A stretch of 64,000 nt of DNA from Pedococcus bigeumensis (GTDB lineage: Bacteria; Actinomycetota; Actinomycetes; Actinomycetales; Dermatophilaceae), in assembly GCF_006438965.1 (NCBI RefSeq), contig NZ_RCZM01000005.1:310001-374000 (forward strand), read 5' to 3'. Position 1 is the stretch's first letter; the number at the start of each line of letters is the position of its first letter. The translations under genes and the position numbers were made by a program. Below, one piece after another: positions 21,075 through 44,013 of this stretch. The notes beneath the pieces are model-generated. The model saw only the letters and a list, made by a program, of their open reading frames with translations, did no database searches and was not told the DNA's origin.

Positions 21075-21686
21075 ATGGCTGCTGGAGTCGGTAAGGCGAC
21101 GGGGTTGAGCGCGGTCCTCAAGGACGCGTCCACTCTCAAGGCGATCCGCGGTGCCGAGCGGCTCAAGCCCGGTGACGTGCCCAAGAAGGGCGTGACCCTC
21201 AAGGCGGCCGAGGCGACGCGCCTGCTGCGCAGCGTCATCCGCTTCGTCGCCGACGTGCCCGCCGACTCCTCACCGATCGTGGTGTGGGAGCAGGAGGGCA
21301 GCGAGCTCTGGGTCGACATCTCGACGGTCTCGCTCACCTGCATCCCGGGTGTGATCCGGGTAGCCGTCAAGGTCGGCTGCGACCAGCTGCCCGAACCGGC
21401 CATGATCACCGTCCCCTTCGGGGTCGGAACACCTGAAGCACCAACGGGTCTCGTGATGTCGAGCCTGAGCCGGCTCGACGGGCCCGAGGTCGTCACCGGA
21501 CGCTGGACCGCGGCGCTGACGGCCTTCACCTGGGAGGCGATCCTGGAGCTCGCGAGCCGGATGTGTGCCGAGCTCGGGCGGGATGCCACCGGCCTGCCGC
21601 TCATCCCGGGGTCGATCGCCGCGGGGTCGCAGACCTTCGTCGTGCAGCCGATGGCTCGCAACGACCTGTCCGGGCTGAGGCGCTGA
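21075..21686 (+). CDS. Conserved-unit protein of unknown function (203 aa), first gene of giant-protein operon
   Basis: I do not recognise this 203-residue protein. It starts with an Ala/Lys-rich basic segment (residues 1-45), then mixed strands and helices (ATRLLRSVIRFVADVP, VVWEQEGSELWVDISTVSL, VIRVAVKVGCDQL). It has no signal peptide or membrane segment. The ATG follows AGAGGT at 7 nt. The stop is 3 bp from the giant gene, so co-expression is near certain. It could be an adaptor or chaperone for the giant protein; that is inference from position only. Confidence 0.8.
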   Translation: MAAGVGKATGLSAVLKDASTLKAIRGAERLKPGDVPKKGVTLKAAEATRLLRSVIRFVADVPADSSPIVVWEQEGSELWVDISTVSLTCIPGVIRVAVKVGCDQLPEPAMITVPFGVGTPEAPTGLVMSSLSRLDGPEVVTGRWTAALTAFTWEAILELASRMCAELGRDATGLPLIPGSIAAGSQTFVVQPMARNDLSGLRR

Positions 21687-21689
21687 GCG

Positions 21690-24600
21690 ATGACACTGAC
21701 CCAGGACGGGATGGGCGCCTTCGGGTCGCTCGCCCAGGCCCTGGGCATCACCGACGGGTCAGCGGCCAACAGCGCCTGGTTCGGCGACCCGATGGGCACC
21801 TCAGGCAACACCCACGGGCTGACGACGATCCTCGCCGACACCGGTCAGCGGGACGCGCTGATCGCGTTCGTCGACGAGGCCCTCGGCCCGCCGGAGCTGC
21901 ACCGCGAGGGTGAGCAGAAGTGGATCCCCCTGTTCGCCGAGTCCTCGCCGGCGATCACCGTGTATGCCGTCGTCGAGCCAGTCCAGGGCGCGGTGCGGGT
22001 GGGCGTCGCCGTGGAGCACCAGGCCGGCACCGGAGCGCCGACGGTCAAGACGACGATCCACGTCCCGATCTTCCACGTCCCCCGCACCGGCCAGACCGAC
22101 AGTCGCCCTACTGACGCAACGCTTCCACGCTGGCTGCTCCTCGGCCGACCCGGCGGCCGCATCACCATCGGCGTCGAGGCCGACTTCGCGGCCGCTCCGC
22201 CGGTCCCCGGCGAGGCCTACCTCGGCGGCGCGAACATCAAGCTCGCCATCCCGACCACGGCCGACGACACCGTCGGCTTCTCCCTCTCGCTCGTCGACCT
22301 CCAGCTCCCCGGCGCGACGACGCCCCAGAGCCGCACCCTCGACCTGGACTCCCTGACCACGCTCGGCGCCGACGTCCTCGAGTTCGTCATCGGCATGGTG
22401 CGGCAGCAGATCGACGCCCTCAACCCGGCCGACCCGGTCTTCCGGCACGTCATGGGCCTGGCCGGGATGCTCGGCCTGCGCGGGCCCGCTGTCGGCGTCC
22501 CACCCCTGCCGATCGCCGAGCTCCCGACCCGCGGCCTGGCCGCCCTCGTTCAGTGGGTCGAGTCGATCCTGGAGGACGACGACACGCTGGACGCCTGGCT
22601 GGCCGAGCTCGCCCGCCTCGTCGGCGGGCTGCCCGATGCCGCGACCAACTCGGTGGGCTTCGCCATCGGCCCGGCAACGCTGCGACTCGGCCTGCGCGTG
22701 ACGCCCGGCACCGGTGGACACGCGACCCTCGTGCCGTGGCTGGACGTCCGCTGGTCGCCGGCACCGGGGACGGCGGACCTGGCGGCGACCGTCGACCTCC
22801 TGCGGGCGGACACCGGCACCGGGGCCGTGACCGCCGTCCCGGGGCTGCGGGCCGAGGCGGTCTTCGGCAACCAGGCCACCGGCGGCACACCGCTGCTGAC
22901 CGGTGCCACCGCGGTGGCCGGGCTGCGCGTCGGCATCGGCCTGGACGCGGCACGACAACCGGCCTTCACGCTGACCCTCCACGGGGTCGACCTCCCCGGC
23001 GGCATCCACCACGACCTGCTCGACCTCTCGTCGCCGCAGGCCGCCGTCGCCGCGGTCGACTCGGTCGTGTCCACGGCCCTCGCCGCCGCGCTCGCGGGCC
23101 TCGGCGGAGCCCAAGGTGCCGTCGAGCGGCTCCTGGGCATCGCGGCCCCGGCCAACGTCACCGCCATCACCGCGTCGGCCCTCATCGCCGACCCGATGGC
23201 CGCGGTCCGGAACTACTGGCTCGACGTCCTGCAGACCCCGAACGCCATGGCCGACGTCCTCGGCCACCTGGCCGAGCTGCTCACCGGCACGGCGCAGGTC
23301 CCGACCCACACTGGCGCCGTGGGCAACCCGTGGCGGCTCGACATCGCCACCGGCGTCGGCCTGCGTGCCTGGCGCGAGACCGACAGCACGCACGGCACCG
23401 ACACCCTCGTCCTCGCCCTCGGCGCCGATGCGGCACTGCCCGTCCTCACCGACCTCGAGGTCGCCGTGGGCGCCGACGTGGTACTCCTGCGGGCTGAGCT
23501 CACGGGCGGTCACCTGTCGCTCGCCAGCGGAGCCAACGCCCAAGTGGTGCTCCGGCCCGTCGGCACCGACCCGAAGACCCTCGACCTCGAGCTCGCCACG
23601 ATCGCCTTCACCGGCATCGGCGTCGCGGCCACCTGGGCCCCGAGCGCGGGACTGGCCGCCCGCGTCCTCGGCGACGGGCTCAGCGTCACCTACACCGACC
23701 CGCGCACCCTCCTGCCGCGCGTGCACGGCATACCCCTGCCCGAGGTGTCGCCCACCGGGGTCGTGACGTTCACGCCCGACTGGGACCAGATCGAGGGCCT
23801 GGTCACCGCCTTGCTCGGCGGGGCGCGGTCCGACGTCGTCGGCACCCTCCTGGACCTCGTCGGGTGGCGCGGGACGGGCGCGCACCTGCGTCTCGGCGCC
23901 CTCATCGCCGACCCCGGCACGGCCGTCGAGAACTGGCTGCTCGACCTCGCCCTGGACTGCGCCCACATACGCACGGCGCTGGGCCCCGTCGCGCAGCTGC
24001 TCAGCGGCGGCGCGCTCACGACGCCGTTCGGGGGTGGCCGGCCGGCCGATCCCTACCGGTGCCCGATCGGCGGCGATGCCCGCGCGCCCGGTCTGGCGGT
24101 CTGGACCGTCCCCGGCTGCCCGCCCGTCTCGACCGCCGGTCCCGGTGGACCCGGCTATGCCGAGCTGCTGCGGGGCTACACGGTGCCCGACGGGCGAGCG
24201 GTCGCCGCCACGCTGCGCGCGGCCCGCACGAGTGCGCCCGACCTGGCCGACCTCCTGGTGGGCCGGACCAGACTGGGCGAGGGCATCGACTCCCTCGTCA
24301 CCCGCTGGAAGGACACCGACGGCGTCGTCGGTGCGGTGGCGCCCACCGGCGTGACCACGAACGTCCTCACCGGCCTGTCGTATGCCGAGCTGGTCGCCAA
24401 CGGGCGAACCGGCAGCTACGTCCTGGACGGGGTCGGGGTCGCCAAGGACACTGTGGTCCACGTCGGCTGCGGCGCGGACTGGCTCACCGGTGTGCCGAGC
24501 AACCGCGCGGTCGACGCGACGTCGACCGCACCCACGGCGATGCCCGACGCGACGACCGGACAGTGGTTCGTCCAGCTGCCCACTCCCCCGTCGGTCGCCA

Positions 24601-27600
24601 CCGACCGTCCCGACCACGACACCGTCGCCGCCCTCGCCGGCCGGCTGACCACAGTGCTGGCGGGGCGCACCGCCGACGTGGTGCTCGTGGCCTACGGCGC
24701 GGCCGGCGCAGCCGCGGTGCGCGCAGCGGTGGCTCAGCCGCGGGTCACGGCAGTTGTCACGGTCGGGACGCCGTGGTCGGCGGTCGCGCTGACCTCGCTG
24801 ACGACCGGTCTGGGCGGCGACGCGGTGCGCTTCCTCGACCGGCTCGTGCCGGACCCGTTGCCGGTCTGGACCGACACGCTGCTCGCCCTCGGCTGCGACC
24901 CACTGCGCCGCGGGCAGGGCCTGGTGCGGCGCGCCATGACGCTGCGCGACCCGGCCGACCTGCCGAGCGCCGCCGCCGAGGTCCTGCCGTCCACCGCCGA
25001 GGTGCACGCGGTGTTCGGCGCAGTGCCTGAAGCCGAGGTGCGTTCAGCCATCGCGTCGGTCGCGGTGGCCGGCATCGCCGCCCGTTCGGCTGCAGCGGCT
25101 GCCGACGTCGCCCGTACCACCGGGCCCCCGACCGAGGTCCACGTCGGCGTCGACCTGCCCGTCCTCGACCTAGACCTTGGTGGCCTGCTCGTCGGGGTCG
25201 GCGCGCGCGTCGACCTCGCCTCGGCCCGCCGGGCGACCCCGCACCTCCAGCAGCTGCGCGAGGTCACGCTCGACGTCCACCTCGGCGTCACTGACGGCTG
25301 GCTCGTGGGCGGACCGGGGGCCGAACAGCAGGACCTCGCCGTCCGCTGGGTCGAGGCGCGAGTGACCATCCCGCTCAGCGGGAGCGGTGACGGGACCACC
25401 GAGATCGTGCTCCACGAGGCTCGGGCGTTCACGGCATACCGGGAGTCGTGGGTGGTGCGCGCCGACGGCGACGGGTCCACCGCCACCACCGCGCTGCCCG
25501 AGGTCAAGATCCTGCTGTCCGAGATCGGCAGCCGCATCCGCACCACCTCCCCGGCGCTCGCCGGCCTGCTCACCCACCTCGGGATCCTGCGCGACGACGG
25601 GGTCGACCCCGACGCCATCGACCACCTGCTCCACGACCCGGTCAGCACGATCCGTCCCCTCGTCGTCACGCGCGCCGCCCAGCTCGCCGACGACCTCCGA
25701 GCCCTGACCGGCGTGACGGTCCGCCCCAGCGACCTGGCGCCGACCGCGGTCCGGATCGGGGCGAGCGGCCTGCACGTCGACGTGGACCTCGCCACCGGCA
25801 CCATCACCGGAGACGTGACGCTGGCCGTCGAGGGCATGCCGCCGCTGGAGGTGACGCTGGCCGCCAGTGCCGCGGGCGTGACGGCGACGGCAGCCCTCGG
25901 CGCCTTCGTCGACGGGGCGGGCGGCCTGCGCCTGGTCGGGTCCGCCGGGACCTCGGGTGCCCACCTGGCCCTGGAGTCGCGGGCTCCTGGCGCGACCTCG
26001 TCGACGACCACCGCGCTCTACCCGACCGTCGACACCGAGGCGCTGATCCGGCAGGCGACGGTGGCCGTCCCGGCCATCCTCGCCCAGCAGCTCGCGCGCT
26101 GGTGCCGCACGGAGGCGAGCGATGTCGGTCTCGCCACGATCGACGCGGGGCTGTCGGCCATCGGGCTCCTCGGTCCGGCCACGCCCTCGGGCGCCCGCGA
26201 CGTCGTGCTGCCGTTCGGACTGTTCACCGACCCCGGCGCCTGGTTGCGGACCCGGTCGGACCCCCTTGCCGCGGCCGTCGCCGTGCTCGACGCGCTGGCT
26301 CCCGTCGTCGTCCCGGGTCGCCCCCTCGGCGTGACCGGCTGGCCGCTCGGCAACGGCCTGACCATCTCGTATGCCGTGACGGCAGGCCGGCTCGACCTGT
26401 CGGCCGAGCTCGCGCTGACCCCCGACGTCGGTGGCAAGGCGGTCACGGTCGCGGTGACCGGAGGCCTGTCGATCACCGCAGCCGGCGTGGTCGCCCCCCT
26501 GCTCGACGCCGAGGTCCTCATCGACGGCCCGGGCCTGCGGCTGCAGGTCGCCCCCACCGTCACCCTCGACCTCGTGCGCTCTTCGCCGGGCACGCCGATC
26601 CGGCTCTACCCCGCTGGCGCGGGTCTGGCCGACATCATCGGGGCGGCCGCCGAGTCCGCCGTCCGGGTCGCCCTCAACGAGGTCGTCGGCCACCGCAACG
26701 ACGCCACGGCCACCCCCCTTCGCGCCGTCGCGAGGGCGGTGCACGAGCTGGGCTCCGGACTGGACCTCCTCGTGGCCGACCAGTTCACCGACGGACGGAT
26801 CGCCGCCTTCATCAGTCCCAGCCCAGCGGCATACCTCGAAGGCCACCTGGCCGGCGTCGTCACCGCAGGGTTGTCCGCCCTGGCCGAGGCACTCGACCCG
26901 ACCCACGCCATCGTCCAGGTCGGCCCGGTCGTCAGTGGGGTCCGGCGGATCACCTTCGGCACGGTCACCCAGATCCACGTCGACCTCGACGCCACGACGC
27001 CGTCGCTGACGATCGGCGGCGACGTCACGCTCCGCGACCGCGACGCCCACCTGATCGGTCACATCGCACTCGAGGGCCTCACCGTCTCGGCGCAGGGGGT
27101 GCGGGTCGCCGTGCGCGCGGGGCCGTTCGCCATCCCCGCGGGGCCAGTGCTGCTCCGGCCGATCACGGTGATCCGAGCCGGCTTCACCGGGAACGGCTTC
27201 ATCCCCCTCGTCGGCGTCGGGGTCGGACTCGACGCCGCCGGAGCGCAGTCGGTCGAGGTGCGCTTCGGTCCGACGGGTGTCGCGGTGGCCGCGGTGACCC
27301 GCGTCGCCGGCGTCGAGACGGGCACCGACCTGACACCAGAGGGCGTGGCGCCGCGGATCCTGGGCATCGCGCTCGACCTGGCCGCCAGCGTCCTCACCGA
27401 GCATCTGGGCACCGTCGTCACCGACCGCGCGACCGGCATGCTCCAGGGCGTCGTCTTCACCGGGGGTGGTCGGCAGATCGACACCACCCTGTTCGGCGAC
27501 TTCGAGCACCCGGAGCGGTTGCTGCACCGCCTCGAGGTGCTGCTGTGGAACTGCGCCACCGACCCCGGTCACGGCGTCAACCCGGTGCGTCCGCTCGGCG

Positions 27601-30600
27601 TGACCATCGCCGGGGCCGTCAAGATCTCGCTCGCGAGCGAGGACCTCGGGGGCGGGCAGAAGCAGATCGGGCTCAACGTGACCCCGGTGGGCGACTTCGC
27701 CTTCCCGACGTCCGGGGTGAACGTGGTCCTGCGGGCCGACGCGTCGTGGATCGACGACGACGTCCTGCCCGGCCTGTCGATCTTCGTCCTCAAGGGCACG
27801 GGGGTCGACGACCTCGTGATCTCCCCAGCCTTCACGGTCGCCGGCTTGGGCGTCCGGATCACCAAGCCGGCCGGCCCGCTGCTCGAGCTGGGGTCGATCG
27901 CCCTGGACGGCATCGGCCTGTCCATCTATGCGGCCGTCAATCCCGACGGCGTCGGCGGCGGCGCCCAGATCGAGCTGGTCGGGCTCGCGGTCGCCCCCGG
28001 TGGTGGCGGCGACAACGGCGTCGCGAACAACATCATGAACGACGTCGGGTCAGCGAGCCAGAACAACCGGCCCAACTTCAGCCCCGCCCTGTCGGTCCAG
28101 CGACAACCCGGACCCGGGCAGCAGATCAAGGTCGGGCTGCGTGCCGGCGAGCCGCCGGGCCCGTGGTGGCTGGTCATCCAGCGCCAGCTCGGGCCGCTGT
28201 ATGTCGACCGGATCGGGCTGGGCGTCGTCGAGTCGGGCGGTCGGGTCACCGAGATCTCGCTGCTGTTCTCCGGCCAACTGTCCGTCTTCGGCCTCACCGC
28301 GGCCGTGGACCGGCTGTCGATCACCTGGCACGGTGGCGACGTCCTGTCGATCTCCAGCTGGTCGGTCGACCTGATGGGCCTGGCCGTCTCGGCTGACTTC
28401 TCGGGCCTGTCCCTCACCGGTGGACTGCTCAAGACCGTCGACGGCGACACCACGTCCTACGTCGGCATGCTGATGGGTCGGTTCGCGGCCTACGGGCTGT
28501 CGGTCTTCGGCGGCTACTCCGACGACGGGCACGGCCACGCGAGCTTCTTCATCTTCGGCGCGATCAACGGGCCGATCGGCGGCCCGCCGGCCTTCTTCCT
28601 CACCGGCCTCGGCGGCGGCCTGGGCATCAACCGCGGGCTGGTCATCCCGCAGGACATCTCCCGGTTCGGCGAGTTCCCCTTCATCCAGGCACTCGACCCG
28701 AGTGCCAAGCCGCCCGCCAACCCGATGGACGAGCTGCACCGGCTCTCGATCTACTTCCCGCACCAGATGGGCAACTTCTGGTTCGCGGCCGGCATCTCGT
28801 TCACCTGCTTCAGCCTCATCGACGGCGTCGCGGTCGTCGCTGTGTCCTTCGGCAACGGGCTGAACATCGACCTGCTCGGACTGGCCCGGATGGCACTCCC
28901 CCGTCCGCAGGCCGCGATCGTCTCCATCGAGCTGGCGCTGCTCGTGCACTTCTCGACGAGCGAGGGCGTCTTCCTCATGAAGGCCCAGCTCACCGACAAC
29001 TCGTGGCTGCTCTACGAGGACGTCCGGCTCACCGGCGGGTTCGCGTTCGCCCTGTGGTGGAAGGGTCCGCTCGCCGGACAGTTCGTCGTGACGATGGGCG
29101 GCTACCACCCCAGCTTCCACCGCGACGGCTACCCGGTGGTGCCGCGGCTGGGGATCGTCTGGCAGATCAGCAGCGTGCTCGTCATCAAGGGCGAGTCCTA
29201 CTTCGCGCTCACGTCCGAGGCGCTGATGGCCGGGACCAAGGTCGTCGTGTCCCTGGACCTCGGCTGGGTCTGGGCGCGGGTCGAGTTCGGGGCCGACGGC
29301 ATCGTCTACTTCGACCCGTTCTGGTTCGAGGTCAGCGCCTACGCCCGGATCTCGGCCGGCATCCACATCGACCTCGGCTGGTTCGGGACGATCAGCTTCA
29401 GCATCACCCTCGGCGCGAGCATCAAGGTGTGGGGTCCGGAGTTCGCCGGCCGGGCCGAGTTCGAGATCGGGCCGTGCACCGTCCCCGTCGAGTTCGGCGG
29501 CTCCAAGGCGCTGCCGCCGCCCATGCCGTGGACCGCCTTCGTCGCCAAGTACCTCGAGGCGTCCGGCAACGCCGCGCGCACCCTGTCGGCCATCACCGGC
29601 AAGGGCACCCTGCCGACGGCTGCAGGGGGCCAGGCCGGCGCGCCGTCCTCCGACGGGACACCTGCCCTGCCGTTCCGAGTGTTCGCCGAGTTCGAGATCA
29701 CCATCACGACGAGCGCCCCGGCGACGACCTTCGCCTTCGGTGCCACCACGCACGAGGTGCCCATCCTCCGGGCCGGCCAGTCCACGCGCCTCGGACTGTC
29801 GCCGATGCAGGCCCACGACCTCACGTCGACGGTCGCCGTCCAGCTCTTCGCCCTCGACCCGGTGACCGGGGTGGCCACGCCCGATGCGCGCCTGGCCAAG
29901 CTGGTCACCGGCTTCAACTCCAGCCCCACCAGCCCGCGGTGGGGGACCGACGCCTACCCGGTCGGGGTGTGGGGCCCGCCGGGTGCCGACGTGCCGAACA
30001 AGCCGCTCCCCCAGGGTGACGTCGTCCAGGCCGGCAAGCTCGTCGTCCTCGTCGCGGGCATCGAGGGCGCCGCCGTCGGACCCCAGATCGACTACCGCCA
30101 GGTCAAGGCGCGCCCCGAGGACCGCCGCCCGCTGCCGCTCACCGCCAAGGGCACCGACCGCAAGCAGTTCCTCAACGTCGCCAAGGCGATCGACGACGAG
30201 CCCGTCAAGGCGATCGCGTCGGCGGGCGACGCGCTGGCGCTGGCTGCCGCCCGCCTGTTCACCGAACGGGGCGGTCTGCCGCGTGGCGGGCACAGCGCGG
30301 TGGCCCGCGCGGCATACCGGCTGGACCGCAGCGCACCGCCCATGTTCGGCACGCTCACCGACGGACTGGCCCCGGCGAACGCCGACAAGGGAGTCAAGAC
30401 CGAGCTCACCCCACCGACCGCACCCGGGAAGCGCGACCCACGGAGCCCGTTCGTCGCGGGGCACCTCACCGCTGGCGTCGGGGCCGTCATCCGCGCCACC
30501 GGGACGACCGTCGCGGATGGCCGGCTCAAGCGTCGCCCGGCTCCGTCGGTCGAGTCGGTCCACGGGCGGATGGCCCTGCAGCTGCCCGTGTCGCTGACCC

Positions 30601-33754: not shown

Positions 33755-34740
33755 AGCTCGACGTGCCCACGATGGTCCTGGACCTGCCGCTGAAGCTGAG
33801 CGAGGCGATCGCCATCCCCACGACGGTCGAGGACGACGACACCGACTCGGCCATCCCCGCCGCCCTGCGCGCCTGGCTGGTCCGGCTCCGGCTGCTCGAG
33901 GGTGTGCCGTTCGCCAACCTCGTCGCCGACAGCGAGCTGCTGCCGCCGGAGTCGATCCGATGGTTCTACCTCGACCGCCGCTGGACCGACGCGCTGGTCA
34001 TGGGCGCGCTCTCGGTCGGCACGGTCAACAGCGACGACCGGACCCAGCTCACCGCCGCCTACGACGCGATCCGCACCGAGCTCGACCAGGAGGAGCGCAA
34101 CGCCCGGCGCCACCCGGGTCAGCCGCGGTTCGGGGGGACCGTCGACGCGGTCAGCGGTTTCATCCTGCGCTCCCAGGCCGTCTCTGGCTGGCCGGGCCTG
34201 CACGTGCGGGCGATGACCATCGACCCCGTCGACGAGGCCGACAACCGGTTCGTCCCCGAGGACGACCCCAACCGGATGCGGCTGCTGCGGCTGGAGCGGC
34301 TGGCTCCGGCGGTGCTGTTCTGCCTCTTCGACGGCATCCCCTCGGTCGTCCACGTCGAGGAGCCGCGGCAGGGCGTCCAGTTCGGCTTCGACCCCGGCCA
34401 GGTCGACGGGTCGTTCAGCTACATCCCGCGCGATGTCAACACCTTCGCTGACCTCGAGAAGCCCGGCGGTGCCCCGGTGCGCCTCGACGTGCCGTTCCGG
34501 GCCACCGACGGGGCCACGGGGGTCATCGACATCCAGCAGGTGCAGAAGGACCTGGTCGCCCTCCCCGCGACCCACGTCGGGGCCAGCCTCGACGCCGCGG
34601 AGTACGCCCTGCAGCTGCTCCGGTTCCCCTACCGGCAGGTCTTCGGCGACCCCCGCGGCGTGAGCATCGGCACGGTCTTCAAGGCCTCCGTCGCCTACGC
34701 CAAGCAGGTCAACGACACGTTCAAGCTCGGAGGAGTGTGA
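33751..34740 (+). CDS. Protein of unknown function (329 aa), operon gene 4
   Basis: Compact mixed alpha/beta protein. The strongest motif is LLPPESIRWFYLDRRWTDAL (~res 64-83), followed by VSGFILRSQAVSGWPGLHV (~134) and LAPAVLFCLFDGIPSVVHVEEP (~184). I believe this combination recurs in uncharacterised bacterial proteins but cannot name a family. The end (YALQLLRFPYRQVFG) is helical. GTG start overlapping the previous stop. No membrane segment or signal peptide. Confidence 0.82.
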   Translation: MKLDVPTMVLDLPLKLSEAIAIPTTVEDDDTDSAIPAALRAWLVRLRLLEGVPFANLVADSELLPPESIRWFYLDRRWTDALVMGALSVGTVNSDDRTQLTAAYDAIRTELDQEERNARRHPGQPRFGGTVDAVSGFILRSQAVSGWPGLHVRAMTIDPVDEADNRFVPEDDPNRMRLLRLERLAPAVLFCLFDGIPSVVHVEEPRQGVQFGFDPGQVDGSFSYIPRDVNTFADLEKPGGAPVRLDVPFRATDGATGVIDIQQVQKDLVALPATHVGASLDAAEYALQLLRFPYRQVFGDPRGVSIGTVFKASVAYAKQVNDTFKLGGV

Positions 34741-37700
34741 TGGCCGACTTCGACCTGACCCCCGAGCGGCTCACCAAGAGCGTCTACACCGACCGCTTCG
34801 CCGCGCTCGCCCGCGCCGACGTGGACCTCGCCACGTGGAAGACGTGGGACAAGTTCCTCGTCCGCGAGAAGCGGATCCTCGTGCCGGTCGACGTCCAGGC
34901 CTACGTCGTGCCCGTCGGCGGCCAGGAGCCGTGCGTCGACGTCGCCGGTGTCGACGGCGACCCAGCCCCCTTCGACGCCGGTGCGGTGCGACCGGCAGGG
35001 GTGCACCTCCACTGGGCGCTCCCCGACGCGTTGCTGCGCGGCGAGAACGACCCGGTCACCAAGAAGGTCAAGCTGCCGCGGCTTCCCGACCGGTGGGTCG
35101 TGGTCCGCACCCTGCTCCCCGAGGGTGGGCGCACGGCATACGCCTCGGGGTGGGTGCTGGACGCGGTCACCGGCGGCATCACGCCGCTGTCCACGTATGC
35201 CGGGACCGTCCCGCCCGGCACGCCACCCCTCGACGGCGGCGTGCCGCTCGAGGTGCTCGACGGTGCTGCTCGGGGCAGCCTGATGTGGACGGCGACCTAC
35301 ATGGGGGCGCTCAACCGGTTCGCCCTGCACGACCCGCTCGTCGACCTGCCGGGCGTCGAGGTGGCGCCGCACGGCTTCCACCGTGGCAAGGCCAGCTACA
35401 CCGTCGCCGGCTGGTGGACCGACTCGGCCACCGACCCGCTCGCCGGGAGCCGCGGGGAGACCAGCGTGCGAGCACGCCTCGCCGAGCTGCGGTGGTGGGT
35501 CAGCCCCGACGGCGAGGACGCCGTGGAGTACGCCGAGGACCCGCGGACCGCCAAGCTGGAGCAGTATGCCGGGCTGAAGTCGCCACGGACTTATGCGCCG
35601 ACGACCGTCCAGACCCCGTACGCGAAGTCGACGACGACCTACAGCGCGGTCGCCCCGGAGGCTCCGATGGCCCTCGCCGACGTGGCCGGGATGACCGTCG
35701 GGATCGGGGCCACGAGGTACCACACGATGCTGCACGGCTCGGTGATCGGCGTGCCCGTCGACGGCACGGCCGGCGGTGCCGACGACCGGCCGGATCCCTC
35801 GACCTTGGCGGCGAGCCTGGGCACGGACATCGACGACATCGTGTCCGCGTTCGCGGCCCCCGCGCTGGGGATCGACCCGGCCAAGCGGCTCACTGCGGAG
35901 CGGCTGTGCGCGGCGTTCACCGGCGACCTGCTCGGGCGGATCGGCACCCCTGACGGGCTCTCCGACCTCGCCGACCAGGAGCACGCCAACGGCTTTTGGG
36001 CGCTTCCCGGGCGTCCCGTCGCGGGAGCCAAGGCGGACCGCCTGCGGACCGAGGACTCGACGCCGTTCGGCCCGCTGGCAGTCGGCCGCAAGGGTCGGGC
36101 CGCCCAGCCCACCAAGGGATCCGGGCTGCCCAAGGGCACCAAGGTCGGCTGGCGGGGCGTGGCCCCGATGACCAGCGGCAAGAAGGTGACGGCGCACGAC
36201 GAGACCCTGGTGGAACGCGACGACCCCGGACCGGGGACGCGCAAGGGCGGGACGAGCACGGCACCTCCGGCCAGTCGCGACGTCGTGCGGGCCGCACCGC
36301 GCGTGTTCCGCCCCGCGCCGGTCATGGTGGGTCTGCGTGGCGTCCACCCCTCGGCCCGGCACCACGGGGACGGGATGTTCGACGACCAGGGGCTGCTGCG
36401 CTGCCGCTTCCCCGGCGAGGTGTCGCCGTCGATCGACGGCACCGTCGACGGGCGCTCGGTGCTGCCCACCCTGGGTAGCGGGGCGGTGCCCAGCGAGGTC
36501 ACCCGGGTGGTCCGCGAGGCGATCATCTTCGACGGCTACTCAGTCGGCTGGCTCGCGGCCTCCTCCGGCCGCAAGGGTGCCGACGTGCAGGCCCTCGAAG
36601 CGAGGCTGACCGCCGAGATGCTGCGGCTCTACGGCACGACGGCACGCTATGACGGGTCCGGCACCGGTCTGGTCGCCGAGGCCGCCAAGGCCCGGATGCC
36701 GAGGGCGGCGGCCCAGGACTCCTGGTCGGGCTACTCACAGCTCGAGGAGGTCGAGACCCTTCAGGTCGCGGCCGAGCTGTCCCGGTTCTCCCTCGTGGCC
36801 TGGAGCCCGCCCAGCCCGATCGCGATCACGACCTGGCGGCAGCCCTGGGTGCCCATCTGGCTGGAGTGGCGGGTCGAGCTCACCGGCACCGAGGACCTGG
36901 CCGGCTGGTCGCTGGCGGACGGCGACCTGCGCCGCAGTGACCCCGTCGTGGGTTCGACGCGGACGCTGACCGGGCGCAGCCCGCTGACGACGGGAGTGGG
37001 CCAGTCGCTGACGACGGCGATGGCCAAGTGGCTGGAGCAGGAGCAGGCGCGTGACCTGGCCTCGCCGAGCCAGTCCGTGATCCCCGACCCCGACGAGGAC
37101 GTCCTGGCCGCGGTGGCCAACCTGGTCCGGCCGCTGGACCTGTGCTCGGCCTCCTTCGACGGGATCCGGGAGCAGCTGCTCGGGATTGCCTACGAGGGTT
37201 TCGTCCAACGGGTCCGGGGCACCGACGGGGTCAACCGGCCGCGCGCGACCGGTCTGCCCGTGCCGCTCTTCGGTGGTTCGCTGACGGTGCTGGACCTGCG
37301 GCTGGTCGACGGGTTCGGGCGGGTGGTCGTCATCCCCCTGACCGGGCTGGCCCGGACGAGCACCCAGGAGCTGCCGGACGAACCTGCGGGTGTCCTGCTT
37401 CCCCCTCGCATCCAGAACAGCGCCCGCTGGTTGCTGCGGCTGGTCGACCCGGCCTACGGGCTCGACCAGGACCCGGCCGACGCCCCCGAGGCCTACGTCG
37501 ACCAGCTGCGGGCCGCGCTGGCCGTCACGCCGGTGTCCGGCTTCCTGCTGCCCGACCACATCGACGAGGCGCTGGAGGTGTTCGACCGCGACGGCCACCC
37601 ACTGGGGCAGCTCGAGCACGACTCGTTCAGCGTCGACGACGGCCCCGGCTCGGTGCGCTGGGACCCCGCGCCGGGACGGCCGGTCCCCCCGGATGCGGGC

Positions 37701-38612
37701 CCGCTGACCGACGTCCCACCGCATGCGCAGCATGCGGCGCTGTTCGCCGCCGGGCTCGTCCAGGCCGACATCGAGGCCCGGCAGGCGACCTCGCCACCGT
37801 CCTGCAGCTCGTTGTCCGCCCTGCTGCGCGCGATCGACTCGACCTTGTGGACGGTCGACACGTTCGCCGCCATCGGGACCCCGACGATCGCGGGGCTGGT
37901 CGGGCGCCCGGTCGCGATCGTCAGGGCCACGTTGCGTCTGGACGCGCCCGATGACGTTGACGAGGTGCAGATCGACGAGGCTGGCGGCCCGGCGGCGCGC
38001 GCGGCGGCATACGAAGCCCTCGCGGCTCACGAGTTCCCTTTCCGGATAGGCGAACTGGGTCGCAGTGACGACAGCGTCCTCGGGTTCTTCGTCGACGACG
38101 ACTACACCCGCTTCCACGTCGTCGACAAGGTGGTGGCCGACTCGGCGATGGCCTCAGGGCCCCGGACCGGCTTCCTCGGCCGGCTCGGCGACACCCCCGG
38201 CCAGGACCCGATCGAGCATGGCTACCTCATCCTGGAGGACACCCTCACCATCCGCATCGGGCAGACCCGGCGCCTGACGATCCTGATGCTGCCGGCCGGC
38301 AAGGTGCACGTCACGTCGGGCATCCTGCCGCGCAAGGCACTTGAGCTGGCCGACACCTGGGTCGGTCCCGGCCTGGCCGCGATGGTGCCGTCGATGCGCG
38401 TGGGGCCGTTGCTCGTCGACCCGGCCGAGATCCGGCTGCCCAACGTCGCCTCGCTCGGCGGCAAGCAGCAGTTCACCCGGCGCACCGGCCCGATCAGCTG
38501 GCGCGACGACCCGATCCTGGCCTCGACCACCAACGCCTACCTGCCCAAGATGCCGCACGAGGTCCAGGAGGGCTGGATCCGCGTGGCGCCCGACGAGGAG
38601 GGCAGCCCATGA
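34740..38612 (+). CDS. Large protein of unknown function (1290 aa), operon gene 5
   Basis: Begins ADFDLTPERLTKSVYTDRFAAL; the most distinctive motif is AGVHLHWALPDALLRG (~res 86-101) followed by LPRLPDRWVVVR. Strand-rich blocks alternate with basic Gly/Lys-rich loops (around residues 445-520). Near the C-terminus there are three consecutive conserved-looking blocks (VLGFFVDDDYTRFHVVDK, LILEDTLTIRIGQTRRLTILMLP, and a closing Trp/Pro-rich piece). The ATG has GGAGGAG 5-6 nt upstream, preferred over a GTG three bases earlier. Unknown function; the TGATG overlap couples it to gene 4 and ATGA to gene 6. Confidence 0.82.
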   Translation: MADFDLTPERLTKSVYTDRFAALARADVDLATWKTWDKFLVREKRILVPVDVQAYVVPVGGQEPCVDVAGVDGDPAPFDAGAVRPAGVHLHWALPDALLRGENDPVTKKVKLPRLPDRWVVVRTLLPEGGRTAYASGWVLDAVTGGITPLSTYAGTVPPGTPPLDGGVPLEVLDGAARGSLMWTATYMGALNRFALHDPLVDLPGVEVAPHGFHRGKASYTVAGWWTDSATDPLAGSRGETSVRARLAELRWWVSPDGEDAVEYAEDPRTAKLEQYAGLKSPRTYAPTTVQTPYAKSTTTYSAVAPEAPMALADVAGMTVGIGATRYHTMLHGSVIGVPVDGTAGGADDRPDPSTLAASLGTDIDDIVSAFAAPALGIDPAKRLTAERLCAAFTGDLLGRIGTPDGLSDLADQEHANGFWALPGRPVAGAKADRLRTEDSTPFGPLAVGRKGRAAQPTKGSGLPKGTKVGWRGVAPMTSGKKVTAHDETLVERDDPGPGTRKGGTSTAPPASRDVVRAAPRVFRPAPVMVGLRGVHPSARHHGDGMFDDQGLLRCRFPGEVSPSIDGTVDGRSVLPTLGSGAVPSEVTRVVREAIIFDGYSVGWLAASSGRKGADVQALEARLTAEMLRLYGTTARYDGSGTGLVAEAAKARMPRAAAQDSWSGYSQLEEVETLQVAAELSRFSLVAWSPPSPIAITTWRQPWVPIWLEWRVELTGTEDLAGWSLADGDLRRSDPVVGSTRTLTGRSPLTTGVGQSLTTAMAKWLEQEQARDLASPSQSVIPDPDEDVLAAVANLVRPLDLCSASFDGIREQLLGIAYEGFVQRVRGTDGVNRPRATGLPVPLFGGSLTVLDLRLVDGFGRVVVIPLTGLARTSTQELPDEPAGVLLPPRIQNSARWLLRLVDPAYGLDQDPADAPEAYVDQLRAALAVTPVSGFLLPDHIDEALEVFDRDGHPLGQLEHDSFSVDDGPGSVRWDPAPGRPVPPDAGPLTDVPPHAQHAALFAAGLVQADIEARQATSPPSCSSLSALLRAIDSTLWTVDTFAAIGTPTIAGLVGRPVAIVRATLRLDAPDDVDEVQIDEAGGPAARAAAYEALAAHEFPFRIGELGRSDDSVLGFFVDDDYTRFHVVDKVVADSAMASGPRTGFLGRLGDTPGQDPIEHGYLILEDTLTIRIGQTRRLTILMLPAGKVHVTSGILPRKALELADTWVGPGLAAMVPSMRVGPLLVDPAEIRLPNVASLGGKQQFTRRTGPISWRDDPILASTTNAYLPKMPHEVQEGWIRVAPDEEGSP

Positions 38613-41600
38613 CGGCCAAGCGGCGGGCACCCCTGGGGTCCAAGGCGCAGCGGGAGGCGCTGGCCGCGTCAACGCGCCGGGAGGCAGCCCGCGCGGCCAA
38701 GCGTGGCCAGGCCGCCGACCGGGCGGCGCGCGACGCCCAGCTCCTCGAGGGCGTCGACCGGGTCGCACTCGAGGAGGCCATGCGTTCGGTCCTCGCCGCA
38801 CGCGAGGAGGCGCCCGCCGACGCGCCGCACGCCGACGCGGCAGATGCTGCACGGGCCTTCCCGTCTGCCGTCGATCCGGCCGGGCGCTGGGTGCCCATCG
38901 GACCCTCGGTCGTGCGGCGCGGCCAGGCGGTCGACCGCCCGCGGGTGGCCGGCCGCATCCGTGACATCGCGGTGGACGCGACGGGCCGGCGGGCTTATGC
39001 CGCGACTGCCCAGGGCGGCGTCTGGTACACCGACGACGGCGCAGCGACCTGGTCACCGGTCGGGGGGTGGTCCGAGCGGCGCCGGATCCGTGGGGGCGCG
39101 GTCAACGCCCAGGCCTGTGGGGCCCTGCTCGTCTCCTTCGACGCGATGCCCCTGCTCGACGTGGTTCTCGTCGGGACCGGTGAGCCGACCTTCGTCCCGG
39201 CCGGATTCGTCGCCGCCACGGGCGAGACGACGATCGACGGGGTCGGTGTGCTGTCCGCGATCGGACCCACGTTCCCGGCGGGCCAGGCCGAGCCCTGGGA
39301 GGTCGACACCGGGATCGCCCAGCTGGAGGGACTGGGGATCTTCAAGCTCCTGCGCAGCCCCGCCAGCTCGCCGGGCACGGCCACGGCCGGCGCCACCCAG
39401 GACGTGGTCGTCGCCTGCACCACCAACGGCGCCTTCCTCGGCCGTCGACAGTCGCTCCCGGCCGGTGGCGGCAACCCGGTGCGCGACGGCTACGTCTGGC
39501 AACAGCTCGCCGCAGTGACCGCGGCCTTCCCCGGAGCGGCGATCTCCGACGGGCTCTGGCTGCCCGGTGGGCGCCTCATCCTCGCGGTGGCGGGGCAGGG
39601 CCTGGCCTTCAGCGACAACCTCGGCGCGGCGGTGACCCCGATCGCGCTGACCAACCCGGTCGCCGTCACCGGGCACGTCAGCCTCGCGGCGGCCGGCAAC
39701 ACGGTCTACGCCATCGGCGAGACGGGCGGCAACCCCGCCTTGTGGCGCGTCGCCGACGCGACCGTGGCCGCCCCCACGGCCGACGACGTCGGCACACCCG
39801 GCGCAGCCACCGGGGTGCCGGCGACGCTGTGGAACGTCGCCGGCGGCAACCAGCGCGACTACGACCAGTGCATCGCCGTGGACACCGTCGGCGCAGTGCA
39901 CCGCGTCTACCTGGGCGGGAGCTCGTTCTCCTACGGCCAGGCCGACGGCGACTGGGGCGCGAGCCTGTACTGCTTCGACGTCGCTGCGTCGGGCGTGGCC
40001 AACCCGCCCTTCGTCCTCCAGGCCACCGTGGGAATCTCCTCTGCGGCCGCCCTGCCCGGCGGTGACGGCGCGACCGCGGCCGGGGCCATCGGCAACAACG
40101 TCCACGGCGACGTGCACCGGCTCGTTCTCACCGGCAACGCCCCGCCGCGCCGTCAGGTCTGGGCAGCCACCGACGGTGGCATCTTCGTCTCGGACCGCTC
40201 CGGTCGGGTCGGCACGTTCGCCGCCTGCAACACCGGGCTCGCCTCGCTCCAACCGGTCTTCGTCCGCAGCCACCCGGTCAACGGACACCTCGTCGCCACC
40301 GGCTGCCAGGACAACGGCAGCCAGGTCCGCATCGGCGACTCGGTCTGGGACGAACCGTTCACCGGCGATGGCGGCGGGGTCGCGTGGCACCCCACTGCGT
40401 CGCACCTCCTTGTCCGCCAGTTCAACCTCTCCGGGTGGTACTGCACGTCGACCACGGCCTTCGTCGACCCGATGACCCGCAACCCCGGCGAGCCGAGCCG
40501 GCTGGTCGGTCCCGGTGGCGAGGGGACCGCGCAGTTCAGCTCCTTCTACTCGGGCGCGAGCACGGTGCGCGTCCCGCCCGTCGGACCCAACCCGGCCACC
40601 GGTCGGCTCGCCCTCGGCACCTACCGCGTCTGGCTCACCGACGACCTCGGCATCGGAGTCGGCCCCAACACCTGGCGGGCCATTCCCTACCCGAACGGTG
40701 TCGCGGCCGACGGCCGCCCGGGAGTCAATGGTGCGGCCAACCCCGCCCAGATGGCGATCGGCTTCACGGCACCGTTCCTGGGGCCGATCGTCACGCTCAC
40801 CTGGGCGTCGCCGACCCAGCTGCTCGTCATCTACCGGGGTGGCATCGTCCGCTACACCGAGAACCCGCCGGGGACCTGGGCGTCGACGACCTGGTCACTG
40901 ACCAACCTCGCCGTGGCGATCCCGCGCACGACGACGTTGACCGACGTCGCGGCGGTGCCGGGCACCCAGAACTTCTACGTCGCGACGACCGGCGTGGTCG
41001 GCGGGCCCGACGAGACCCTCTGGTTCTTCAACAATGCCGACGGGCGCTTCAAGCGCACCACCCTGCGCCGCCAGCTGGACGCCGGTGGGGCGGTGAACAG
41101 CGGTCCCCGCGATCCCGTCTTCTCGGTGATCGTCGACCCCGGCGACGCCACCGGCAACACGGTGTATGCCGGCACCGTCACCGGTGTCTGGCAGGGCACC
41201 CGCACCAACAACACCACCGGTGCCCACACCTGGGTCCCCTACGTCAACGGACTGCCCCAGGCGACCGTCCAAGACCTCGACATCTGGCGCGACCCAGGTG
41301 GCGCGCTGACGGCACCCCGTCTGCTCCGCGCCGCCGTCCAGTCGCGAGGGGTGTGGGAGGTCGATCTGGCGCGAGATGCGTTGCCGCAGACGTGGATCCG
41401 TTCGAACCGGTTCGACGACCGGCGCAACCCGCTGACCATCCACACAGACCCACTTGCTGCGCCCCCCGCCCTCCCTGCGTCGCTCTCCGCGAGCCCGGAC
41501 ATCACCGTCAGGCCGAAGTGGCCGGTCGCGGCCACCCCTGCCTTCCTGCCGGTCCCCGCGATCACCGCAATCAACGCGCCGGCATACGACGTGTGGACCT

Positions 41601-42406
41601 TCCAGACGGCGTTCCGGTGGCTGCATCCCAGCGTCGTCGCCAACGGCCAGTTCTCCGATGCGCTCGGGCGGCTCGTGGCGTTGCACCGGACCCAGATGGT
41701 GCCGCCCAAGTCCGCCATCCCGGAGATCGACGCAGCCGTGTGGGCCGATGTGGTCGGCGGCGTGCGCGTCAAGGTCGACGGCACGGTCACCACCGACACC
41801 GCGGACTCGCGGGCGGTCTACCGCGCCCCGTGGCAGACGCCGCGCGCCGCGGCCGTGACGGCGACCGAGGCGGACCTGCTCGACCTGGTGCCCCGCAACG
41901 TCGTCAACGACCTGTGGACCGTCTTCCACGAGCCGTCGACCGTCGACGTCCTCGTGCACCACCGCGATGCGATCGGGCTGCGGGCCAACCAGGGTTTCGT
42001 CGTGCTGCTGTGGCGAGTGGGGGCGAACCCGTCGGACCTGATGGCTCTCTCGGTGACCACGCTCCTGCCGTTCCTCACGGCGGCTGCCGCGGGGACGGCG
42101 CAGGCGGTGCCGGCCGGGTGGAACCTCGCGACGGGCGGGGGCGGGGTCACCTGGCGCACGGTGCCGACGGCGGTCGACGCTCGGATGCCGCGAGCCGTGT
42201 CCATCGACGTCGACCTCACCACCGCGCCGAACAAGCAGCAGGTGCTGTTCCTCGCGTTCGTCGGGTCGATCGGCGCGGGCGAGGTGTTCGTGCCACCCAC
42301 CATGGCGCCGGGCGCGGTCGTCCCCCCGACCACCGTCGCGGAGCTCGTGCGCTTCTGCCCGTATGCCGCCGCGCGCATCGTCCACCTCGAGGAACGCCCC
42401 ACCTGA
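38609..42406 (+). CDS. Large beta-propeller protein (1265 aa, Asp-box/BNR-like), operon gene 6
   Basis: The first ~75 residues are an Ala/Arg/Glu-rich helix, probably a docking segment. Residues ~90-950 carry propeller-type repeats, including the Asp-box-like VWYTDDGAATWSPVGGW (~137-153) and repeated endings such as VWAATDGGIFVSDRSGRVG, YVATTGVVGGPDETLWFF and VYAGTVTGVWQG. This resembles sialidase/VPS10/HCF136-type propellers. Residues ~1000-1265 form separate strand-rich domains. There is no signal peptide despite the fold's usual extracellular setting. Last gene of the unit; it converges on the minus-strand propeller operon 64 bp away. Confidence 0.83.
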   Translation: MTAKRRAPLGSKAQREALAASTRREAARAAKRGQAADRAARDAQLLEGVDRVALEEAMRSVLAAREEAPADAPHADAADAARAFPSAVDPAGRWVPIGPSVVRRGQAVDRPRVAGRIRDIAVDATGRRAYAATAQGGVWYTDDGAATWSPVGGWSERRRIRGGAVNAQACGALLVSFDAMPLLDVVLVGTGEPTFVPAGFVAATGETTIDGVGVLSAIGPTFPAGQAEPWEVDTGIAQLEGLGIFKLLRSPASSPGTATAGATQDVVVACTTNGAFLGRRQSLPAGGGNPVRDGYVWQQLAAVTAAFPGAAISDGLWLPGGRLILAVAGQGLAFSDNLGAAVTPIALTNPVAVTGHVSLAAAGNTVYAIGETGGNPALWRVADATVAAPTADDVGTPGAATGVPATLWNVAGGNQRDYDQCIAVDTVGAVHRVYLGGSSFSYGQADGDWGASLYCFDVAASGVANPPFVLQATVGISSAAALPGGDGATAAGAIGNNVHGDVHRLVLTGNAPPRRQVWAATDGGIFVSDRSGRVGTFAACNTGLASLQPVFVRSHPVNGHLVATGCQDNGSQVRIGDSVWDEPFTGDGGGVAWHPTASHLLVRQFNLSGWYCTSTTAFVDPMTRNPGEPSRLVGPGGEGTAQFSSFYSGASTVRVPPVGPNPATGRLALGTYRVWLTDDLGIGVGPNTWRAIPYPNGVAADGRPGVNGAANPAQMAIGFTAPFLGPIVTLTWASPTQLLVIYRGGIVRYTENPPGTWASTTWSLTNLAVAIPRTTTLTDVAAVPGTQNFYVATTGVVGGPDETLWFFNNADGRFKRTTLRRQLDAGGAVNSGPRDPVFSVIVDPGDATGNTVYAGTVTGVWQGTRTNNTTGAHTWVPYVNGLPQATVQDLDIWRDPGGALTAPRLLRAAVQSRGVWEVDLARDALPQTWIRSNRFDDRRNPLTIHTDPLAAPPALPASLSASPDITVRPKWPVAATPAFLPVPAITAINAPAYDVWTFQTAFRWLHPSVVANGQFSDALGRLVALHRTQMVPPKSAIPEIDAAVWADVVGGVRVKVDGTVTTDTADSRAVYRAPWQTPRAAAVTATEADLLDLVPRNVVNDLWTVFHEPSTVDVLVHHRDAIGLRANQGFVVLLWRVGANPSDLMALSVTTLLPFLTAAAAGTAQAVPAGWNLATGGGGVTWRTVPTAVDARMPRAVSIDVDLTTAPNKQQVLFLAFVGSIGAGEVFVPPTMAPGAVVPPTTVAELVRFCPYAAARIVHLEERPT

Positions 42407-42470: not shown

Positions 42471-43682
42471 TCACGAGCGGAAGACGACCACGCGAGGCTC
42501 GATGTTGCGGCGGTCCTGACCCCCCTGCAGGGTGTAGCCGCTGGCGACCCACGAGGTCGTCCGACTGGGGTGCGCCCGGCAGACGACGTAGTCTCCCCAC
42601 TTGCCCGCCTGCGGCGCGTGGGTCGACGTCGAGGTCGTCTTCGTGGTCCAGGTGTTGGCCTGCTGGTCGAGGATGCCGACCGCATGCGCCGGCTGGGTGG
42701 GGCCGCCGAAGAAGGCGGCGAGACCGATGCTCCCTCGCTTGTTCGGCGCTGCCGCCGGGTAGGCCCAGGCGCCGTTCTGGCTCCAGAGGTCCGGCTCGGC
42801 CACGACCGTCAGCGACTGCTCGTCGAGGGTCACTGCGCGGATGTAGGGCTGCGGCCGCCCGGGCCCCCGGCCGGCACTCCACAGGAAGCCGAGCCGGCCA
42901 CCCGCCCGCCAGGCGCCGGTGATCCGATCGTCACAGCGGCTGAGCCACGGGTTGCCGTCCGGTCCGATCGAGCGGTAGTCGCTGTCGTTCCACGCCGTGA
43001 CCGGGATGGTCCAGGCGGTGACGCCGGCCGCATCGTCCGGCCACTGGAACAGCCGCACGGACCGGTGCGCCTGGTCGTTGCCGGCGAACCACATCGAGGA
43101 ACCGGCTCCGGAGACGAGGCGTAACGAGCCGACGGCCGTCGTCGACCAGTGCCGCCTGGTCAGGGGTGCGGTCCGGGTCAGGTCAGCGCGTGCATACCGG
43201 ATGACCCCGGCCCGCACCCACCGGTCGGAGCCGTCGTAGTGGTTGAAGGTCAGCCACAGGTTCTTCGTGCTGACCGCGAGGTCCGGGAAGTCGAACCACA
43301 CGTCGGTCCACGCCGGGTCGAGGTCGGCTGGCGCGACGTCCCACCAACGCCACGTCCCTGCGGCGGCCGTCCGACTCACGGCGAGGCGAAAGATATTGCT
43401 GCGCCCCGATTTCGAGTACTGCAGCAGCCACACCCAGAGCCGCTGGGTCGGCAGGTAAGTCACGAGCTGGTCGCAGCAGAAGATGCCGCGGTCGGTGGGG
43501 AACTCGGTGAACGGGTCGAGCAGCGTCCAGGTCGCACCGCGGTCCGCCGAGCGCGTGGCGTACCAGTTGCCCGTCACGAACAGGGTCGAGGAGGACACCC
43601 CGACGGACGGCTCTCCGACCGTGCCGGTCTGGGTGCCGGTGGCCGCATCGTCGAGCGCGAGGTTCGCGGTGATCGTCAGCAC
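42471..43682 (-). CDS. Asp-box beta-propeller (sialidase-like fold, 403 aa)
   Basis: Contains a canonical Asp-box, RSADRGATWTLLDPF (~res 39-53), and recurrent strand blocks (IFRLAVSRTAAAGTWRWW, DFPDLAVSTKNLWLTFNHYD, GRLGFLWSAGRG). Two adjacent Cys (GIFCCDQL) are notable. Catalytic residues of true sialidases are not obvious, so it is more likely a binding propeller. GTG start 13 nt after the upstream gene; no signal peptide. The frame is open for 50 further codons upstream, overlapping the Pro-rich gene. Last gene of a three-gene operon facing the giant-protein unit. Confidence 0.75.
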   Translation of the reverse strand: MLTITANLALDDAATGTQTGTVGEPSVGVSSSTLFVTGNWYATRSADRGATWTLLDPFTEFPTDRGIFCCDQLVTYLPTQRLWVWLLQYSKSGRSNIFRLAVSRTAAAGTWRWWDVAPADLDPAWTDVWFDFPDLAVSTKNLWLTFNHYDGSDRWVRAGVIRYARADLTRTAPLTRRHWSTTAVGSLRLVSGAGSSMWFAGNDQAHRSVRLFQWPDDAAGVTAWTIPVTAWNDSDYRSIGPDGNPWLSRCDDRITGAWRAGGRLGFLWSAGRGPGRPQPYIRAVTLDEQSLTVVAEPDLWSQNGAWAYPAAAPNKRGSIGLAAFFGGPTQPAHAVGILDQQANTWTTKTTSTSTHAPQAGKWGDYVVCRAHPSRTTSWVASGYTLQGGQDRRNIEPRVVVFRS

Positions 43683-43695
43683 TGGTCGACCCAGC

Positions 43696-44013
43696 TCACT
43701 CGGGGTCGGACGGCGGTGGGGCCGAGGGCGCCGGCTCGACCGGTGCAGCCGGCGGCGTCTCGGGCGGTTTGGGTCCCGGCTTCTTGCGGTCAGCCGACTG
43801 CTGCCGGTCCCGCTGGTCGAGCTGCCGGTCACTCATCGGTGTGCCGAGGTCCGGCTCGGCTGCGGCGGGAAGGCGTTCCGCCGACTCGGCCCCGGCCAGT
43901 GCGTCTTCGCGCGCCCGGTCGCGCCGCGAGCGCGGTCGGACGTGGGTGCCCGCCAAGGGATCCACGCCCTCGTGCGTGGTCTCGGTGGAGTCAGCCCGCC
44001 GCCTGGTGGTCAT
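43696..44013 (-). CDS. Disordered Pro/Arg-rich protein (105 aa)
   Basis: Low-complexity hydrophilic protein: an Arg/Asp-rich N-terminal half (VRPRSRRDRAREDALAG), a charged middle (SDRQLDQRDRQQSADRKK), and a Pro-rich end (PPETPPAAPVEPAPSAPPP). No fold expected. The ATG overlaps the stop of the membrane protein (ATGA), which supports it being real. It could be a tether or linker between the membrane protein and the propeller. Confidence 0.6.
   Translation of the reverse strand: MTTRRRADSTETTHEGVDPLAGTHVRPRSRRDRAREDALAGAESAERLPAAAEPDLGTPMSDRQLDQRDRQQSADRKKPGPKPPETPPAAPVEPAPSAPPPSDPE

Follow-up and report, generated by a model that had tools for sequence, protein, structure and literature searches.

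A stretch of 64,000 nucleotides from Pedococcus bigeumensis (contig NZ_RCZM01000005.1, positions 310,001 to 374,000; hereafter the window, its genome being labelled G000) carries six closely packed genes, one of which encodes a protein of 3326 residues. The question raised by this locus is what such a set of proteins, most of them very large and nearly all without a recognised family, is made for. The answer has two parts of different strength. The six genes form a dedicated multi-gene unit, which is strongly supported by co-occurrence, gene order, coupling and identical presence lists for two of its proteins. As for the product, the reading preferred here, as a possibility somewhat short of probable, is a large soluble particle of several proteins whose recognition arm is interchangeable.

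A coupled unit of six genes

A first reading of the sequence alone had described a six-frame, 21-kb coupled unit, and all of its coordinates and lengths are correct. The products, numbered in gene order and all encoded on the forward strand, are P1 (203 residues; 21075..21686), the first gene of the cassette; the giant protein P2 (3326 residues; 21690..31670); P3 (695 residues; 31667..33754); P4 (329 residues, GTG start; 33751..34740), a member of the LLPPESIRWFYLDRRW family that contains its motif; P5 (1290 residues; 34740..38612), which likewise contains the motif of the GVHLHWALPDALLRG family; and P6 (1265 residues; 38609..42406), a BNR-repeat-like and probable propeller protein in an exchangeable last slot. 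The five junctions between them are, as first read, a 3-bp gap, ATGA, GTGA, TGATG and ATGA.

Across P1 to P6, the single Pfam match is DUF6603 (PF20248) in P2 (residues 2163-2622, E 3e-117, 392.7 bits against a cut-off of 27), and P1, P3, P4, P5 and P6 have no Pfam row at E <= 1. With a match over the curated cut-off, the unit is a DUF6603 system. The one NCBIfam row below E 0.01 belongs to P6, which partially matches a BNR-type glycosylhydrolase model (18.7 bits, the cut-off being 175), P1 and P4 having weak rows only (E 0.11 and 0.17). In PHROGs, P1 and P4 reach rows at E 0.015-0.016, in families of unknown function, and P3, P5 and P6 reach none. Searched alone by sequence, P3, P5 and P6 have no usable match in the PDB; a profile of the P3/P4 alignment gave four rows (E 0.37-0.98), none usable, which leaves P4 without a solved relative, and another alignment (A4) gave one unusable row at E 0.8. 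P1 and P3 to P5 keep the status given to them from the start, that of proteins with no nameable function and no usable match to a known family. A separate idea, that P1 is a detached piece of the giant, was rejected, as no window exceeded 5% probability.

A signal peptide is indicated in none of the six products: in a hydropathy scan, used here instead of a dedicated predictor, no 19-residue window within the first 50 residues of P1 to P6 exceeds a mean Kyte-Doolittle value of 1.15. Cysteines are scarce, with 1 to 12 per protein.

Conservation, order and coupling of the core

Genome contigs were scanned with one pattern, the P5 motif taken from the P5 alignment, and 57 of the 117 stretches matched encode a P5 relative (these loci are numbered L below). 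Since this motif was the sole pattern of the scan, the co-occurrence result is independent of the other genes. Of these loci, 50 include 4 kb or more of DNA before P5, and a giant or DUF6603 gene, P3 and P4 are present in every one, counted with profiles built iteratively on the same loci. They correspond to 48 distinct places, since L077 and L087 duplicate L076 and L080, the copies lying at opposite ends of a single Streptomyces chromosome; for L074, the DNA covers the giant's C-terminal part only. The genes are collinear on one strand at all 49 loci with a DUF6603-domain hit. The remaining seven of the 57 loci end early, at contig or stretch ends, and one of them (L045) shows parts of all four genes.

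Two main forms of the unit can be distinguished. Class A, the type of the window, has a giant of ~3300 residues, separate P3 and P4, P5 and usually P6. Class B has a DUF6603 open frame of ~820-1700 residues, P3 and P4 mostly fused, P5 and no P6; P3 and P4 are nevertheless separate in L010, L071, L072, L074 and L075. On the P5 tree, the 33 class A rows fall on one side of a branch with an SH-aLRT (Shimodaira-Hasegawa-like approximate likelihood ratio test) value of 100. In each of the 24 class A loci examined (the window, L022, L024, L039 and 20 more), P1 is the gene immediately before the giant. Further upstream no conserved gene was seen, none recurring in more than three loci save for opposite-strand frames over P1 and P2, as judged by eye.

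The tight junctions recur in relatives. Measured from the nearest start to the previous stop, gaps of -20 to +40 bp are found at 51 of 57 P2-P3, 32 of 34 P3-P4, 56 of 59 P4-P5 and 26 of 29 P5-P6 junctions, the commonest values at the last three being -4 and -1. This statistic is supportive rather than decisive, because choosing the nearest start favours small gaps.

Presence lists point the same way. In a set of 296 genomes from the phylum, nine have DUF6603, four P5 and four P4, and the P4 and P5 genomes are the same four, all within the nine; the query alignments include the window, L033 and L034 (and L039 for P4), so those detections were expected. No genome of the 296 carries P4 or P5 alone. 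A tblastn search with P4 found relatives in seven plasmid records of Streptomyces, Embleya and Paenibacillus, where P3 and P4 are frequently fused; four of these loci were read, and in three of them a DUF6603 gene lies directly before. The Paenibacillus sonchi plasmid (L012) departs from the rule, with P3P4, a P5 split over two frames and no DUF6603 in the 40 kb read, and is possibly a decaying copy. Apart from it, the check proposed together with the unit, that homologues might rarely occur together or that one might be a characterised enzyme, brought up nothing against a dedicated multi-gene unit.

The exchangeable last slot

The position after P5 is the one that varies. Where 3 kb or more follows P5, at 49 loci, P6 is found in 26, another protein, c0, in 17 (two of them duplicate copies), both in none and neither in six; in one of these six (L056), an astacin-like protease takes the last-slot position. 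The c0 proteins share an N-terminal domain of ~180 residues, followed by divergent ends. Ten frames with the c0 domain were scanned by Pfam, and the ends of three exceed the cut-off: S74 endosialidase chaperone in L082, F5/8 type C in L086, and Fib_succ_major in L010, where the frame also covers other sequence. The c0-type frame of L074 has a cupin row below the cut-off. By eye, c0 ends include fibre-like repeats, collagen-like stretches and propeller-like sequence. In Mucilaginibacter L071, three related proteins follow the operon, and the one that was scanned contains a phage tail collar domain (E 4.9e-16).

P6 had been read as a propeller, and as the recognition part of an assembly. A profile match to the PDB BNR-repeat protein 3b7f (E 0.0003 over 32 residues) and the NCBIfam row mentioned above account for one BNR blade only, and Pfam finds no BNR blade in six P6 proteins, so the fold is suggested by a single weak match. 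The recognition role is favoured indirectly by the mutual exclusion, in one slot, of P6 and proteins with partly fibre- or lectin-like ends.

P6 is often accompanied by c1, which in the window is an open frame of 453 residues on the reverse strand (42471..43832), with a likely start later, near residue 51, and an Asp-box-like motif seen by eye; it has no Pfam or PDB match. It follows P6 at 46-1055 bp in 13 rows, or 12 distinct places, two rows (L048, a Knoellia locipacati contig, and L025) being one genome. It is convergent with P6 in the window and in the congeneric genome G004, and on the same strand elsewhere. As a seventh gene, c1 probably belongs to the unit. It was seen in ten of the 26 P6 loci and, within the DNA covered, in none of the other 16, which makes it a frequent companion and not a constant part. 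A small gene, c2, lies between P6 and c1 in seven places (four Marinobacter, one Ketobacter and two other gammaproteobacterial bins).

The giant protein and its DUF6603 domain

Open frames of the P2 type, 3251-3525 residues long, are present in the 23 other genomes whose match lies on a single contig. A search with the giant's first 1566 residues gave a match in 24 of 29 genomes; the five without one are those of L071, L082, L088 and L094, all class B, and of L070, the earliest-branching class A member on the P5 tree as drawn. This N-terminal part contains repeats (residues ~101-920; 21990..24450, forward strand) that a profile-profile self-comparison resolves into diverged copies ~300 residues apart, with probabilities of 95.9% for windows 100/400 and 97.8% for windows 400/700. 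DUF6603 had been described as an uncharacterised domain of giant proteins, which is correct for the long form, and the domain also occurs in open frames of ~700-1700 residues with different partners, so it is not confined to giants. Pfam names no function for it; here, in contrast, the domain sits in a conserved multi-gene unit. Neither DUF6603 nor PF20248 is mentioned in the literature searched, a scope that leaves out preprints and most subscription papers; on this evidence, and by the family searches, the unit belongs to no described kind.

The domain of P2 (28176..29555, forward strand) is predicted to form a long meander of antiparallel beta strands, with a likeness to porins and ApoB. 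Among the matches listed, those to porins and ApoB have 5-12% identity and root-mean-square deviations (rmsd) of 9.9-15.5 Å, with porins ranking above ApoB; folds missing from that list, such as those of RHS proteins or extracellular contractile injection systems (eCIS), are not excluded by it. A porin-type closed barrel would draw on the predicted meander and on porin matches near 10 Å rmsd, that is, on a resemblance at the level of topology. A difference from porins and ApoB is that the cassette has no export signal. The role first proposed for the giant, a scaffold or conduit, is compatible with the predicted meander, but with rmsd values of at least 9.9 Å a conduit is not established.

P2 residues 781-1180 (24030..25229, forward strand) show in the alignment a weak resemblance to alpha/beta hydrolases and carry a VTVGTP-type motif, of a kind linked to lipases. 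The elbow serine is present in one of 24 giants, the distant member L039 (9778-10920, reverse strand), which reads AHSTAG, and is missing in the other 23, including that of the window. The best related Pfam row, Palm_thioest at E 0.053, also comes from L039 only and is a lead, not a result; four other families each have one weak member. Looked for by elbow serine and family match, an alpha/beta hydrolase was not found in the P2 region, and lipase activity of the giant was rejected as a claim.

An alternative explanation would keep the unit inside the cell, handling lipid or a hydrophobic polymer in the cytoplasm: the ApoB- and porin-like meander would hold lipid, the hydrolase-like region would be a lipase remnant and P3 to P5 would coat the particle. 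Against this, it is not obvious what the S74, F5/8, Fib_succ_major and fibre- or collagen-like ends of the last-slot proteins would do inside a cell, the Palm_thioest row stays at E 0.053 and porins precede ApoB in the structure ranking; such a function is regarded as unlikely.

A putative recognition particle

The soluble particle preferred here would be built as follows. P3, P4, P5 and the beta-meander protein with DUF6603 would form its core, made together by coupled translation in a fixed order. The last slot would add a recognition protein, which is c0 in the short form and P6, often joined by c1, in the long one. Assembly would take place in the cytoplasm and the particle, its proteins having no signal peptide, would leave by lysis or a non-classical route. 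It would then bind a target through the last-slot protein, and the partly amphipathic beta meander may touch a hydrophobic or membrane surface, line it or enclose it. What the analysis demonstrates is the genes themselves, their joint inheritance in a fixed order, the tight junctions, the mixture of phyla on the tree and the exchange in the last slot; the beta meander is a prediction, and the physical complex, its export, its binding and the membrane contact are inferred. Order and tight junctions are kept across mixed phyla while a binding-like end piece is swapped, a pattern expected of machines that act on something outside the cell.

A number of observations weigh against this particle. 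The rmsd is 9.9 Å or more in all 50 structure matches listed for the DUF6603 model, and amphipathicity is clear in some strands only. P3 to P5 have no usable PDB relative. The recurrent neighbours, whose clusters were scanned by Pfam in part, include no recognised gene for secretion, lysis or pore formation, and no toxin or cargo is common to the loci, the enzyme-like neighbours differing from one to another. Six of the 49 last slots hold neither P6 nor c0, Pfam returns no row at E <= 0.01 for six of the ten c0-type proteins scanned, and most of the evidence for propellers and fibres consists of weak matches or of reading by eye. To these are added the 16 P6 loci with no c1 in the DNA covered and the P. 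sonchi plasmid with no DUF6603 in the 40 kb read.

The recognition part finds its closest likeness in eCIS and phage tail fibres, which combine a constant base with variable ends in modular receptor-binding proteins; the likeness is limited to that part. A catalogue of eCIS names S74, C1q, collagen and beta-propeller lectins (PMC12923769), and these end types overlap in part with those of c0. The injection machinery itself is a different matter. The contractile sheath (PF04984) has no match in G000, and the same search was positive in three of 14 control genomes; because the genome has no sheath, the unit is not taken for a contractile system. As the sequence-only reading had found, no tube, baseplate, sheath or AAA ATPase gene accompanies the cassette, according to Pfam for the six proteins and ten neighbouring window frames and to the lack of a PHROG match of that kind for five of the six, the genome-wide search having covered the sheath only. 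A phage origin was also rejected, with no relative in two viral_contigs scans (one motif each) or, for the DUF6603 domain, among INPHARED phages.

Tc toxins offer a second comparison. Their proteins are encoded in one operon and are not known to carry signal peptides. They are large multi-protein complexes, and one study describes their release by a lysis cassette (PMC10847046); the present cassette lacks a common payload. A toxin-delivery particle of this style, with DUF6603 as shell or pore and the neighbouring hydrolases and metallopeptidases as payload, could explain why enzyme-like genes stand beside the core in several lineages. A metallo-beta-lactamase (MBL)-fold gene lies directly upstream of the class B operon in L010 (over the Pfam cut-off), in L011 and L033 (below it) and, by clustering with L033, in L081 and L083. 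Other loci have M64 (L037), PhoD-like (L098 over the cut-off, L036 below) or M91-like (L076, below) proteins, the astacin-like protease already mentioned, or an LCAT-like neighbour, which also varies by locus. These enzymes are too variable between loci to be called payload, none being conserved, and the unit of the window has no such gene. Moreover, TcA, SpvB and RHS Pfam families, TcdA included, are found in none of P1 to P6 at E <= 1. Delivery of a toxin in this manner is thus considered very unlikely.

A third possibility is that the producer displays the assembly on its own surface by non-classical export, for adhesion or matrix building and not for action on other cells. The variable, binding-like ends would suit such a function. 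In Mucilaginibacter L071, a gene for PorP/SprF, a membrane protein of the type 9 secretion system, lies directly upstream (30-974, E 2.7e-55), and similar sequence was seen by eye upstream in L072 (1-438), Pfam having been run on L071 only; a haloarchaeal relative, in turn, stands beside a gene annotated 'BGTF surface domain'. PorP/SprF is however restricted to these two Mucilaginibacter loci, the BGTF label is unconfirmed by Pfam, and no signal peptide was seen by eye in five proteins of L071, five haloarchaeal proteins, the DUF6603 protein of L072 or P3 of L074. This makes surface display a rather improbable explanation.

A broader form of the particle reading would see a new class in these cassettes: a non-contractile, phage-independent recognition or delivery particle released by lysis, with a DUF6603 shell or pore, a P3-P4-P5 core and an interchangeable binding arm, occurring in seven or more bacterial phyla, with transfer among some of them and a related haloarchaeal form. 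This is put forward as a doubtful proposal. What gives the locus its interest is the joint inheritance, across seven phyla, of very large proteins without recognised relatives save for one DUF, and the swapping of a binding-like end piece across mixed phyla in an otherwise fixed arrangement. The cassette also provides a context for the DUF6603 proteins held in databases.

Distribution and spread

The 57 loci found with the P5 motif belong to Actinomycetota, Pseudomonadota, Bacteroidota, Bacillota, Planctomycetota, Myxococcota and Gemmatimonadota. Around the window, an 18-row set of the P5 tree (SH-aLRT 100) contains members of Actinomycetota, Pseudomonadota and Gemmatimonadota, and across starred branches the label changes at least seven times for Actinomycetota and at least four times for Pseudomonadota. 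The tree was made by a quick method with SH-aLRT values only, and gave warnings of odd composition and of long branches, the named ones being all class B; such counts are no proof of transfer, and bins may hold foreign contigs.

Closer to the window, nine of 58 genomes drawn as relatives match DUF6603: the window genome, G004 and G027 at 397-399 bits, G047 at 346, G030 at 212 and four at 26-29. In G004, from the same genus, P1 to P6 and c1 are found at ~86-92% identity. Of 14 other window frames compared with its flanks (~12 kb on the upstream side and 6 kb on the downstream side), a single one was recovered, 43483-44529, whose sequence overlaps the beginning of c1, and the glyoxalase gene downstream of the unit is not a syntenic anchor. 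The DUF6603-domain query matched 12 of 72,556 plasmid records. The mixed phyla on the tree, the patchy occurrence and the unshared flanks of G004 suggest that the cassette has spread horizontally between bacteria.

A sporadic, mobile distribution is also what an anti-phage or intragenomic-conflict system would show, and plasmid copies exist, one of them near CHAT/CATRA conflict genes. Against this, PADLOC has no match for seven queries (the giant being represented by residues 1560-2700 only), and no nuclease or NTPase family was found by Pfam in the six proteins, so that a defence function appears highly improbable.

One DUF6603 operon comes from the Archaea, on a plasmid of Salinigranum marinum (L098), preceded by the PhoD-like gene and followed by large proteins.

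Other architectures and neighbouring genes

A third architecture, class C, has DUF6603 together with a protein matched by the P3 profile (L026, L027 and L037). In place of P5 it has c6, a protein of ~1400-1900 residues identified by clustering in L026, L032, L035, L036 and L037 and by position in L099. The longer proteins in the P3 position of class C (alignment of L026, L035, L036, L037 and L099) match P3 at 98.2% and possibly P4 at 67.8% probability. Homology between P5 and c6 was considered and not detected (probability 0.11%). In L099, from a Streptomyces europaeiscabiei plasmid, a pentapeptide-repeat protein follows the class C genes.

Within the genus of the window, four loci (L028-L031, in G003, G006, G007 and G008) have an open frame of ~2270-2330 residues with a weak DUF6603 match and no P3, P4 or P5 hit in the 20 kb covered. 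In Streptomyces olivoreticuli, two class B operons lie near each chromosome end (L076, L077, L080 and L087), making four copies, with M91-like metallopeptidase genes, below the cut-off, alongside. In the window itself, ATPase rows among the ten neighbouring frames are confined to two ArsA-type proteins, whose adjacent genes (12861-15115, forward strand) lie upstream of a penicillin-binding protein gene and are ordinary chromosomal neighbours.

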